From an uncultured Bacteroidia bacterium (GTDB lineage Bacteria > Bacteroidota > Bacteroidia > Bacteroidales > F082), in assembly GCA_902799345.1 (NCBI GenBank), contig CADBZW010000025.1:1-33397 (forward strand): 33,397 nt of DNA. Reading direction: 5' to 3'. Both the position numbers and the translations under genes were made by a program. The notes under the pieces were generated by a model. The model worked only from the letters and a program-made list of their open reading frames with translations, ran no database searches and had not been told where the DNA came from. Positions 23,883 through 26,646 of this stretch are shown in pieces (position 1 is the first letter of the stretch; every line of letters starts with the position of its first letter).

Positions 23883-23930
23883 GTTTCAAAACCGGCTGAA
23901 CAATAAAAAAAGTTTTGTATTTGCGGCAAG

Positions 23931-23965
23931 AATAGAGGCTGATCTTTGTCAGTTTGGCCTCTATT
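23931..23965 (+). terminator. Hairpin after the PEGA gene
   Basis: AATAGAGGC (23931-23939) pairs with GCCTCTATT (23957-23965), followed by ATTATTTG. A weak intrinsic terminator. Confidence 0.55.
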
Positions 23966-23992
23966 ATTTGAATAATAAATGAGGTTAAAGCG

Positions 23993-24021
23993 TTGCCCAT
24001 TCAAAATATTCTGTACTTTTG
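23993..24021 (+). promoter_or_regulatory. Promoter of the small HTH gene
   Basis: TTG at 23993-23995 and TACTTTTG at 24014-24021 are 18 bp apart, a good Bacteroidota promoter. It predicts a leader of roughly 250 nt before the start codon at 24285. Confidence 0.55.
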
Positions 24022-24108
24022 CCTCATAAAAGAAAGGACATTTAGAAAGACAATAGAACATAGATATTATTAAACTGAGCTTTACGCTCTTATTCTTTGT
24101 CTTGTAAA

Positions 24109-24282
24109 ATCGGCAAAATTTAGCAGTGGAGAATAAGTTGGCGAAAGGCTCACGTCGTTAGGGCGTGAGCAATTTTGCTTATTCACTGCTATGGCGTTTG
24201 CCGATGCCTTCAAGACGGGTAAGCAGATACGGTTCCGCCCTTTTTGTTTGCCTAAAGCGCAAGGCTCTCCGCAAAGGCAAAC
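24109..24282 (+). promoter_or_regulatory. Structured leader with nested and competing hairpins
   Basis: Helix 1: ATCGGCAAA (24109-24117) pairs with TTTGCCGAT (24197-24205). Continuing inward are AGCAGTG (24123-24129) with 24184-24190, AATAAG (24132-24137) with 24178-24183, and GCTCACG (24148-24154) with CGTGAGC (24164-24170). A competing helix joins GCAAAATT (24113-24120) and AATTTTGC (24171-24178). A second hairpin, GTTTGCCT (24246-24253) with AGGCAAAC (24275-24282), ends two bases before the ATG at 24285. GGCAAA and TTTGCC each occur twice, so partners can be exchanged. The layout suggests a cis-acting RNA control element. I know no family name for it. Confidence 0.55.
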
Positions 24283-24325
24283 CGATGAACGAAGAACCGC
24301 ACATAGGGAAACTCATCAAGGCTGA
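24191..24325 (+). CDS. Possible 44-codon leader ORF overlapping the HTH gene
   Basis: ATG at 24191 follows the nested hairpin directly and opens a 44-codon frame, MAFADAFKTGKQIRFRPF onward, ending TGA 24323-24325, inside the HTH gene in another frame. It is basic and has no recognised domain. It could be a real small protein, a translated leader that controls the HTH gene, or chance. It is listed because its ATG lies between two helix strands of the structured leader. Confidence 0.25.
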   Translation: MAFADAFKTGKQIRFRPFCLPKAQGSPQRQTDERRTAHRETHQG

Positions 24326-24521
24326 ACTGGCAAGGCAGGGACGCAGTGTCACATGGCTGGCTGCGCAACTCAACTATTCGCGGCAGTACCTCTACAAACT
24401 CTTCCGCCGCAAATGGATTTACACCGATTTGCTGCTCAAAATCTGCGATTTGCTGGACTACGATTTCTTTAAGTGCTTTTCGGAATGGCGGGAGCAAAGA
24501 AACGAAATCTCTACCAAATAA
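24285..24521 (+). CDS. Small XRE-like helix-turn-helix protein
   Basis: A 78-residue protein. Residues about 18-62 (RSVTWLAAQLNYSRQYLYKLF followed by the second helix pair up to LLDYDFF) resemble a lambda-repressor/XRE DNA-binding fold. No other domain is present, so it would act as a small dimeric regulator, with an unknown target. The start at 24285 was chosen because the Met fits the start of the family-like region, and the upstream in-frame extension runs through the structured leader. It ends 11 bp inside the convergent RelE/ParE-type toxin gene, whose stop lies at 24511-24513. A plausible role is control of a nearby gene or of its own leader. Confidence 0.75.
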   Translation: MNEEPHIGKLIKAELARQGRSVTWLAAQLNYSRQYLYKLFRRKWIYTDLLLKICDLLDYDFFKCFSEWREQRNEISTK

Positions 24522-24819
24522 CCATTTTTGAAGGAATTATTTTATGCACAAAGACGTACCTGTCAGTCTTATGGAATATGAAACACCATTTCCTGTTGTT
24601 GCTCAACAACCTTTGTGCAAGAGGATGATATAAGGATAAAGTTTTGGAAGGAATGTAGGCCATAGCATCGGCCAAATAGGACAATTGATTGATTTCGTCA
24701 ATGAGTTCATCGGCATATCGTAGGGCATTCTCTTCCGAGGTGTTGTAAGTGATGAACTCGATGATTTCTGAAAGGTCATTCCTGACTTGCGGCAGAATGA
24801 TTACTTCTCTGATCTTCAT
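24511..24819 (-). CDS. RelE/ParE family toxin
   Basis: A 102-residue toxin candidate. The pattern is that of the RelE/ParE superfamily: N-terminal LPQVRNDLSEIIEFI helix, middle helix ENALRYADELIDEINQL, then beta-strands including NNRKWCFIFHKTDRYVFVHKII. The target (mRNA cleavage or DNA gyrase) is not readable from sequence, and ParE-type proteins differ in their key residues. It overlaps the antitoxin gene by 44 bp at its start, more than usual. It is the second toxin-antitoxin pair in the window and is unrelated in sequence to the YoeB pair. Confidence 0.85.
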   Translation of the reverse strand: MKIREVIILPQVRNDLSEIIEFITYNTSEENALRYADELIDEINQLSYLADAMAYIPSKTLSLYHPLAQRLLSNNRKWCFIFHKTDRYVFVHKIIPSKMVIW

Positions 24820-24985
24820 AATGCTTCCTGATGCCGTTTTTTAATAATGCGCCAAATTGCGAAACAGTCATGCTGCCTTCGGGTATAGTCTCGTCAACAG
24901 TTGCTAATCCAGAGCTAATCAGATTTCCAAGAGCATCAAGCACCATCTGATTGTTTTCGTCGTATCTCAAAGTTATTGTGGTCAT
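24776..24985 (-). CDS. Antitoxin of the RelE/ParE-type pair
   Basis: A 69-residue protein immediately upstream of the toxin, with the N-terminal sequence MTTITLRYDENNQMVLDALG. The first 12 residues may form the beta-strand of a ribbon-helix-helix-like or similar DNA-binding fold. The C-terminal part (MTVSQFGALLKNGIRKHYE) is a helix that could mask the toxin. The start at 24985 was chosen because a -7 box lies 22 bp upstream; an in-frame ATG further up (25018) would place the box inside the gene. Identity is inferred mainly from position. Confidence 0.75.
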   Translation of the reverse strand: MTTITLRYDENNQMVLDALGNLISSGLATVDETIPEGSMTVSQFGALLKNGIRKHYEDQRSNHSAASQE

Positions 24986-25006
24986 TTTTCCGAATGGTTT
25001 CTGCTG

Positions 25007-25014
25007 CAAAAGTA
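25007..25014 (-). promoter_or_regulatory. -7 promoter box of the RelE/ParE-type operon
   Basis: TACTTTTG on the minus strand, 22 bp before the antitoxin start. It is about 40 bp from the divergent rluB promoter box. Confidence 0.55.
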
Positions 25015-25055
25015 ACAATTATTTACTAAATCGCAATAGTTTCCGAATTTCTTTG

Positions 25056-25063: not shown

Positions 25064-25185
25064 CCGCCCATTATCGGACTTTGGGACCTCAATTCTTCGA
25101 AACGATGGGACCTGAAAGTCGCGAGTCTCGCAGTCCCGCGTCCCGTAGTCCAATACCACTTATACATTATTTATATACCAACACA

Positions 25186-26646
25186 ATGACTGAAAACGAA
25201 AGATCTGGCAAGCGTCCGCGCACCAGAAAGCCTGCTGATGATGAATTCCAGCAGAGAAGGTCCTTCAAATTCTATCACCGCGACGGTGACGAGGAAGGAC
25301 GCGAAGAGAGAAGTTTTGGCGACAAGCCGAGAGGTGAGCGCCGATTTGATGACAACCGTGGCGACCGTAGGTTCGGCGACCGTAAGTTCGGCGACCGTCC
25401 CCGCCGCCGCTTCGACGACGAAGAACGTGGTGAAGGCCGTCGTGACGACCGCCCGCGCCGCCGCTTCGACGATGACGAGCGTCCGCGCCGTCGTTTTGAT
25501 GACGACAAGCCGCGTGAGCGCCGTTTCCACGACGACGACCGCCCACGTCGCCGCTTCGACGACGATGAAAAACCGCGCCGTCGCTTTGATGACGACAAGC
25601 CGCGTGAACGCCGCTTCCATGACGACGACCGCCCACGTCGCCGTTTCGACGACGTTGAAAAACCCCGTCGCCGCTTTGATGACGACAAACCCCGTGGCGA
25701 ACGTCGTTTCGATGACCGCCCTCGCCGTAGGTTTGACGATGACGACCGTCCGCGCCGCCGTTTCGACGACGACAAGCCGCGTGAGCGCCGTTTCCATGAC
25801 GATGAGCGTCCCCGTGGAGGCCGCCGTTTCGACGACCGTCCGCGCCGCCGCTTCGATGACGAAGAAGAACCACGTCGTGGCCGCAAGGGCTATGTCCGCG
25901 AGAAAGACCCGCTGTACGACCGCCCGAAAGCCACTGGCGAAATCCGTTTGAATAAATACCTGGCCGACTGTGGCATCTGCTCACGCCGCGAAGCCGACGA
26001 CCTGATCAAGGCCGGCTGCGTGGAGGTGAATGGCGAAGTGATCACCACCATGGGTTACAAGGTGAAGACCGACGACAAGGTGGTGTATGGTGGCCAGACC
26101 CTCAACCGCGAGAAGCTCCGCTATATCCTGCTCAACAAGCCTAAAGGCTTTATCACCACGTCCGACGACCCCTATGAGCGCGACACCGTGATGGAACTCG
26201 TCAAGAATGCCTGCCCCGAGCGCGTCTATCCTGTGGGCCGTCTCGACAAGCAGACCACGGGCCTGCTGCTGTTTACCAACGACGGCGACCTCGCCAAGAA
26301 ACTCACCCATCCGAGCAGCGAGATCCCGAAGCTCTACCATGTCATCCTTGACAAGCCCTTGACCAAGAACGATATGCTGCGCATCTCTGAAGGCATTGAG
26401 TTGGATGACGGTCCCATCGCCGCCGACAACATCGCCTATGACCAGGATGACGACAGCAAGAAGAGCATCGGCATCGAACTCCACTCGGGCCGCAACCGCA
26501 TCGTTCGCCGCATCTTCGAACATCTCGGCTACGAAGTGACCAAACTCGACCGTGTGATGTTTGCCGGTCTCGATAAATATAAACTGCCCCGTGGCGAGTG
26601 GCGTTTCCTCACCGACCTCGAGGTAGCGAATCTGAAGAAAATCTAA
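25186..26646 (+). CDS. rluB: 23S rRNA pseudouridine synthase (RluB/RsuA family) with Arg/Asp repeat tail
   Basis: A 486-residue enzyme that isomerises a uridine to pseudouridine in 23S rRNA. The C-terminal half has an S4 RNA-binding domain (from about residue 252, IRLNKYLADCGICSRREADDLI) and the catalytic domain with GRLDKQTTGLLLFTNDG, where Asp354 is the catalytic aspartate. The first 240 residues are low-complexity: RRF followed by DD or HDD occurs 16 times, interspersed with PRRR and DDDK. At the DNA level the unit repeats with a period of 90 bp (25486, 25576, 25666). The tail should be unfolded, highly charged and able to bind RNA or ribosome. Related enzymes in Bacteroidota carry similar but variable tails. 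The start at 25186 (MTENERSGK) is favoured by the promoter position. Confidence 0.9.
   Translation: MTENERSGKRPRTRKPADDEFQQRRSFKFYHRDGDEEGREERSFGDKPRGERRFDDNRGDRRFGDRKFGDRPRRRFDDEERGEGRRDDRPRRRFDDDERPRRRFDDDKPRERRFHDDDRPRRRFDDDEKPRRRFDDDKPRERRFHDDDRPRRRFDDVEKPRRRFDDDKPRGERRFDDRPRRRFDDDDRPRRRFDDDKPRERRFHDDERPRGGRRFDDRPRRRFDDEEEPRRGRKGYVREKDPLYDRPKATGEIRLNKYLADCGICSRREADDLIKAGCVEVNGEVITTMGYKVKTDDKVVYGGQTLNREKLRYILLNKPKGFITTSDDPYERDTVMELVKNACPERVYPVGRLDKQTTGLLLFTNDGDLAKKLTHPSSEIPKLYHVILDKPLTKNDMLRISEGIELDDGPIAADNIAYDQDDDSKKSIGIELHSGRNRIVRRIFEHLGYEVTKLDRVMFAGLDKYKLPRGEWRFLTDLEVANLKKI
25396..25880 (+). repeat. Coding tandem repeats, 90-bp period
   Basis: The unit encodes roughly RRRFDDDKPRERRFHDDD; successive copies begin near 25486, 25576 and 25666 and then degenerate. 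Third-position changes between copies show that the protein pattern is maintained. Confidence 0.7.

Follow-up and report, generated by a model that had tools for sequence, protein, structure and literature searches.

What is the strongly folded stretch that precedes a small HTH gene in an uncultured Bacteroidia bacterium, and does it serve that gene alone? The window (the whole stretch of DNA that was analysed, 33,397 nucleotides) was first described in an earlier note, which proposed that the leader of this gene is a switch-like cis-regulatory RNA, one that it could match to no named family, and that homologous leaders and covarying base pairs should be sought. Both were found, and the comparison bears the proposal out. 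The region from 24100 to 24300 has a computed folding energy of -76.9 kcal/mol, as against -57.08 +/- 4.55 kcal/mol for its shuffles (z -4.36; none of 200 shuffles equalled it). We conclude that the leader is a real, structured and conserved RNA that is not confined to one HTH gene. Its parts, with the gene behind it, are the following.

23993-24021, plus strand: promoter-like pair TTG (23993-23995) and TACTTTTG (24014-24021, TAnnTTTG), from the sequence and the enrichment of the motif.
24077-24089, plus strand: small hairpin H0 (GAGC/GCTC), the first part of the conserved element, with 93.5% of cells paired in 31 homologues.
24089-24096, plus strand: strand 1, of which 24090-24096 pairs with 24130-24136 of strand 2 as hairpin A.
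24099-24216, plus strand: helix P1 (24099-24104/24211-24216), loop A to loop C, from pairing percentages and the swap test.
24110-24204, plus strand: helix P2 (24110-24117/24197-24204), loop A to loop C, from pairing percentages and both-side changes.
24121-24191, plus strand: helix P3 (24121-24127/24185-24191), loop A to loop C, from pairing percentages in alignment A4 and the swap test.
24130-24154 (about), plus strand: strand 2, from the swap test of 2·3.
24148-24170, plus strand: hairpin B (24148-24154/24164-24170), the top of the putative 2·3 antiterminator, from pairing in homologues.
24161-24184 (about), plus strand: strand 3, common to the putative antiterminator and terminator, from the swap test and cell pairing.
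24217-24240, plus strand: strand 4, which gives the predicted terminator stem through stem c (24176-24184/24217-24225) and D (24161-24165/24236-24240), from the swap test.
24241-24249, plus strand: U-tract TTTTTGTTT after the predicted terminator stem, from the sequence.
24246-24282, plus strand: hairpin ending before the start codon, in HTH-type leaders only, from core-cell pairing in 31 homologues.
24285-24521, plus strand: gene downstream of the element, which codes for a 78-aa HTH protein, from its translation, with Pfam HTH matches below the cut-offs.

The TAnnTTTG motif suggests a transcription start near 24028, ahead of 24109, the first position given in the earlier note, and upstream of 24205; a start downstream of 24205 is what that note had named as arguing against a leader RNA. 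TAnnTTTG is the consensus of a Bacteroidota-type promoter in those parts of PMC6414381 and PMC9723704 that deal with it, and it occurs no more than 100 nt upstream of 56 of 94 copies of the element, compared with 3.7 expected from mononucleotide shuffling. By eye, no TAnnTTTG lies between the U-tract and the start of the HTH gene, so that expression from the upstream promoter needs read-through.

The conserved, mutually exclusive helices of the element are 1·2, 2·3 and 3·4. The second is made of hairpin B and 24131-24137/24178-24184, and the third of stem c, which encloses the loop of hairpin C, followed by B3'·D, together a nearly unbroken stem in two relatives (L205 and L118). P1, P2 and P3 join the loop of hairpin A with that of hairpin C; being nested with 2·3, they make the putative antiterminator one long rod. 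Conserved AAA/UUU and GG/CC flank P2, where a riboswitch might have part of its aptamer core, and can also pair as the tips of the hairpins, AAA..UUU around P2 in A and GG..CC around P2 in C.

Pairing was evaluated in a sequence-only alignment of 31 HTH leaders (A1, MAFFT) and in an alignment of 75 copies, 74 of them distinct, that was made without the rod and fitted to the hairpin set (A4; like A5, it was made with covariance models). The hairpin set is paired in 95.7% of A1 cells versus 40-47% in slid controls, the terminator set in 93.9% versus 46-52%, and the rod in 83.6% versus 32-48%; 18 rod pairs are changed on both sides, a number that 44 of 500 shuffles reach. Rod pairing rises to 88.3% in A4, where 28 of 39 pairs show both-side changes (0 of 500 shuffles) and 412 cells are changed on both sides, compared with 73-177 in slid controls; the hairpin set, to which this alignment was fitted, is paired in 93.7%.

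Among the 31 homologues, pairing of the individual helices is found in 94.5% of cells for hairpin A (1·2), 217 of 217 for hairpin B, 95.8% for the lower part of 2·3 (24131-24137/24178-24184), 98.6% for stem c and 90.3% for D. P2 pairs in 95.1% of A1 cells, with four of its eight pairs changed on both sides, and in 91.5% of A4 cells. The values for P1 are 54.1% in A1, where the alignment shifts the helix, and 74.8% in A4; those for P3 are 67.5 and 41.3% in A1, where it is poorly aligned (MAFFT shifts P1 and P3), and 75.4% in A4. Finally, G·U cells far outnumber A·C cells (326 versus 40 in the model-fitted alignment, 152 versus 28 in A1), an excess that is expected if RNA of the transcribed strand folds.

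We then compared, in 30 non-redundant copies (of 95), the pairing of each strand with its own partner and with the partner strands of other copies, using 5000 permutations. Loop A·loop C was by far the most copy-specific pairing (own -27.1 versus swapped -9.8 kcal/mol, 0/5000), with the own partner best in its row for 28 of the 30. Means for 2·3 were -22.1 (own) versus -16.3 (swapped) kcal/mol and for 3·4 -23.6 versus -15.3 kcal/mol, each 0/5000. Helix 1·2 was the weakest pairing, at -4.5 versus -3.1 kcal/mol (0/5000, 20 of 30 copies above the median swap). Pairings 1·4, 1·3 and 2·4 were non-specific (990, 2239 and 1893 of 5000), and the closing helix 1·4 (P0) was rejected as a specific pairing on this result, though 85% of its cells pair in a rod-fitted alignment. 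A smaller test of 17 copies again placed the own loop A·loop C partner best in its row in 14; B3'·D agreed in the mean only (5/17).

The 3·4 stem has the form of an intrinsic terminator, being GC-rich with a U-tract directly behind it, and the U fraction in the eight nucleotides after D is 0.74 across the 30 copies. A terminator scan left 3·4 unreported, its loop being above the limit of the scan, and flagged hairpin B at chance level. In the window, hairpin B itself precedes a U-rich stretch (24148-24178 for the two together); this stretch is not U-rich in several copies of the type found in genus g178.

Folding of successive prefixes of the window showed 1·2 present at 24150 and lost by 24186, once strand 3 was out. 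The lower part of 2·3 appeared at 24186 (five of seven pairs) before neighbouring pairing took over, and P3 and then P2 were in place by 24206, about 30 nt ahead of the synthesis of D. The nested helices that had been read from the letters can be found where they were placed, and they covary, but one of them, 24131-24137/24178-24184, is replaced by neighbouring pairing in the full-length fold of the window itself (0/7 pairs); the outer helix P1 falls outside the range given for them. The rod is more stable than the terminator fold in all 30 copies, by 15 kcal/mol on average. With so large a difference, termination would need a factor or a kinetic trap; left to itself, the RNA would be expected to allow read-through, and for silencing hairpin A would have to be held or its loop blocked.

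Pairings, copy-specific coevolution, U-tract, promoter motif and co-direction with genes are all computed features of the element, and we consider it likely that they belong to a cis-acting transcription attenuator, one of a multi-copy Bacteroidota family that would serve accessory, surface and defence genes. Hairpin A (1·2) would form first, after which strand 2 would pair with strand 3 as the antiterminator. The loops of hairpins A and C would then pair through P1, P2 and P3 into the long rod, and transcription would continue into the gene; the hairpin tips suggest that the loops may kiss first through P2 and then zip up. If hairpin A were held closed or its loop blocked, strand 3 would be free for strand 4, stem c and B3'·D would form an intrinsic terminator before the U-tract at 24241-24249, and the transcript would end at a length of about 220 nt. 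We infer termination at 3·4, its prevention by the rod and read-through as the unaided state, a direction of the switch that follows thermodynamics; a protein, an RNA or a ligand would presumably act on hairpin A.

One candidate for such an agent, which we offer as speculation and think quite unlikely, is the terminated leader itself, which would also act in trans when its own gene is transcribed anew. Loop C (or A) of the released RNA might pair with loop A (or C) of the nascent leader, so that the rod breaks and termination is forced. The copy-private loop pairing (-27.1 versus -9.8 kcal/mol) could then serve as an address, through which a dozen or more accessory genes per genome would be independently self-silenced. 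Plasmid copy-control RNAs offer a parallel for self-silencing of this kind.

How far does the element extend beyond the HTH locus? The window's own genome contains at least 14 diverged copies at separate places; the 13 others are 47-65% identical to the window's copy and retain its architecture. A covariance model built from the 31 HTH leaders (R1) found 13 places at E<=1.2e-3 and the fourteenth at 0.049, to which the model R2 gives 56.4 bits. Two of these RNA copies (L074 and L076, on contigs C13 and C28) precede related small proteins, and related opposite-strand genes (MYGVYDRREVF...) lie beyond them, as they do in L204; we regard this as a duplicated locus.

Surveys of wider scope indicate a multi-copy RNA family spread across Bacteroidota. 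At the DNA level, complete or partial relatives of leader and gene were present in 53 of 99 genomes of the genus, and a model survey found relatives in 92 of 98. Four of the six genomes of the genus without a match were searched again with R2 and full scoring, and three gave matches at E<=1e-3; the fourth is 62% complete. Across the order, 90 of 247 genomes and 69 of 173 genera carry matches (the own genome and two others of its genus included), and across the phylum 19 of 198 genomes, namely the own genome, 14 others from the same class and four from different classes. In these large surveys of genus, order and phylum the filters were stricter and 9-24 candidates were scored in each genome, which makes their copy counts lower bounds. 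Candidatus Limimorpha equi, at 84.7 bits, is among the carriers, as are three Paludibacteraceae MAGs at 35-37 bits; two Salinivirgaceae loci are borderline (19.9 and 21.9 bits), and full scoring of four genomes gave weaker candidate matches of up to 26.7 bits. Prevotella sp. MGM2, at only 9.7 bits, is unsupported as a carrier. Positions 24000-24300 showed no DNA similarity to plasmid and phage records, and the exact pattern of the window's subtype was absent from the viral contigs searched. The exact g178-type pattern is present on two IMG/VR contigs (L233 and L234), classed as viral.

The genes behind the element are mostly read in its own direction. When the nearest downstream ORF with an ATG start and a length of 60 aa or more is taken, 102 of 112 loci show co-direction. 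Other rules for choosing the ORF give weaker co-direction: 78/94 (largest ORF), 76/91 (at least 100 aa) and 71/94 (65 aa). The nearest upstream ORF is also co-directional in 26 of 36 loci (100 aa) or 39 of 60 (65 aa), so that part of the bias is general. Thirteen loci of the own genome were checked, with L082 left out, and in 12 of them an ATG ORF that is co-directional and no shorter than 60 aa starts within 900 nt, the exception being L076.

The description of the RNA as the leader of a small HTH gene is correct for this locus, but the family is not tied to such genes. HTH proteins of the window's kind account for 40 of the 105 downstream ORFs scanned (108 less three near-duplicates), in a sample that leans to HTH because it was drawn mostly with R1, a model built on HTH leaders. 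Matches at Pfam E<=0.01, among the 25 families listed of 73, include the TonB plug (8), the T9SS sorting domain (7), BspA LRR (3), WG repeats (3), N6 methylase (3), N6_N4 methylase (2), AAA_14 (2) and nSTAND3 (2); the PADLOC models matched by downstream ORFs are mostly those of methyltransferases. Six of the seven g178 loci have an ORF that appears SusC-like by eye, starting 381-829 nt after the start of the element. We found no common metabolic theme, and no hint of a ligand, in the downstream genes examined.

Several neighbouring genes may be described here. An ORF about 770 nt behind the RNA in L139 and L147 presumably resembles the AbiEii-type nucleotidyltransferase toxins; in L147 an HTH ORF lies between the two. 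In the window, two overlapping ORFs lie on the minus strand at 24511-25018: one for a 102-aa protein that matches ParE_toxin weakly (E 0.012, below the cut-off) and, upstream of it, one of 80 aa. These look like a toxin-antitoxin pair converging on the HTH gene, with an overlap of 11 bases between the end of the pair and that of the gene. Beyond, on the plus strand, 25081-26646 encodes a protein whose N-terminal part is long, repetitive and DDRPRRRFDDD-like and precedes what we take to be an S4 and pseudouridine synthase part.

Could the copies instead be free-standing small RNAs that act in trans, each with its own promoter and with 3·4 as its 3' end, so that the gene behind is incidental or read through? 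The promoter motif of 56 of 94 copies, the terminator-like stem with its U-tract in the 30 non-redundant copies and the many paralogues per genome would all fit, and multicopy small RNAs are described for Bacteroides in the part of PMC11697453 that covers FopS. Such RNAs would not be expected to keep the downstream ORF co-directional in 102 of 112 loci, nor would a plain small RNA need 2·3, which coevolves within each copy; we therefore regard this explanation as unlikely.

Very unlikely, in our estimation, is control of translation, by which the start-codon hairpin would hide the start region until an exchange of pairing upstream, or possibly temperature, opened it. Of 31 HTH-type homologues, 22 do keep all six core pairs of this hairpin (24247-24252/24276-24281), and 91.4% of the cells are paired, but the hairpin is absent from the minimum-energy fold (0/7 pairs), and its columns pair in 80.4% in the R1-fitted A4, which includes other gene contexts. 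The earlier note had derived the exchange from two features of the window. One, the exclusive helix GCAAAATT/AATTTTGC, is present there, but all eight of its pairs occur in only 2 of the 31 homologues (74.9% of cells). The other, the sharing of GGCAAA and TTTGCC between the two hairpins, is fully kept in only 19 and 20 of the 31, respectively, and is lost in copies with another P2. Hiding and exposure of the ribosome site through these elements is thus unsupported by conservation among homologues; the exchange that the swap test finds conserved is that of terminator and antiterminator, upstream of the start-codon hairpin. Least probable of all is a DNA-level repeat, a palindromic mobile or recombination site whose symmetry merely resembles RNA structure, since the many dispersed, nearly self-complementary copies (seen as antisense matches) and the exact pattern of one subtype on two IMG/VR contigs are outweighed by G·U far above A·C on both kinds of alignment and by the U-tract, the promoter motif and the co-direction with genes.

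We return to the attenuator and its relation to known systems. The RNA, which the earlier note could not match to a named family, fits none in Rfam: Rfam 15 at curated scores gave no match in the window, and on 16 + 16 homologous loci none on the element, with tRNA outside it only. Below the cut-offs, three eukaryotic-type families (E 0.18-4.3) matched around 23914-24112 of the window and mir-556 (E 0.4) outside the element of L062; L218 has a tRNA and two overlapping weak Rfam matches, also outside the element. The trp leader has the same order of strands, 1·2, 2·3 and 3·4, and in it too an antiterminator competes with an intrinsic terminator. Our element resembles trp-type attenuators, including Bacteroid-trp RNA (RF01692), in its exclusive 1·2, 2·3 and 3·4 with a predicted terminator, and it differs in the additional pairing of hairpin loops, the many copies per genome, the unrelated genes and the lack of an Rfam match; membership in RF01692 was rejected. 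A leader peptide over strand 1 was likewise rejected for the window, which has no ATG ORF of at least six codons there; of 112 copies, 17 have such an ORF close to strand 1, and by eye these share no peptide (ATG starts only).

Other dispersed RNAs of the phylum were also considered. FopS of Bacteroides thetaiotaomicron, as outlined in PMC11697453, has 14 paralogues per genome, canonical sigma-ABfr promoters and a Rho-independent terminator, in an architecture of a single-stranded 5' stretch (the seed) and one terminator hairpin. Both RNAs are multicopy, but ours has interlocking hairpins and precedes co-directional genes; membership in FopS was rejected on this difference of architecture, the window having no Rfam match. 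Flavo-1 (RF01705) and other Bacteroidetes motifs of Weinberg et al. 2010 (PMC2864571, in the part concerned) are dispersed structured elements, and Flavo-1 occurs sense or antisense of transcripts, according to the relevant section of PMC9723704. Flavo-1, of 76 positions, and the present element are thus both dispersed and structured RNAs of Bacteroidota; membership was rejected because no match fell on the element in the 16 + 16 homologous loci. Flavo-1 itself has at least 107 matches in one genome (G363) and is above the cut-off in 21 of 31 genomes.

Overlap is most conceivable with the 15 candidate structured RNAs within 25 bp of HTH_XRE genes that Fremin and Bhatt (2021, PMC8040213) describe from human microbiomes; their study also has some palindromic candidates from Bacteroidetes for which terminators are predicted. 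Those that the running text of that paper mentions by name are 38-132 bp long, and the text reports neither such an architecture nor such a mechanism; the two sets may overlap. A literature search, among the titles and abstracts listed, returned no recognisable description of the element. The RNA is apparently undescribed. The logic of attenuation is already known; the rod without a leader peptide, the copy number and the range of genes are apparently unmatched in the literature searched.

If this reading is true, the element would be a widespread, multi-copy cis-regulatory RNA of Bacteroidota that is absent from Rfam 15 and precedes restriction-modification genes, TonB-dependent (SusC-like) receptors, secreted or BspA-type surface proteins and small HTH regulators. 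Accessory genes of bacteria from the gut, the rumen and the environment would then share a type of switch, with predictions that could be tested base by base.
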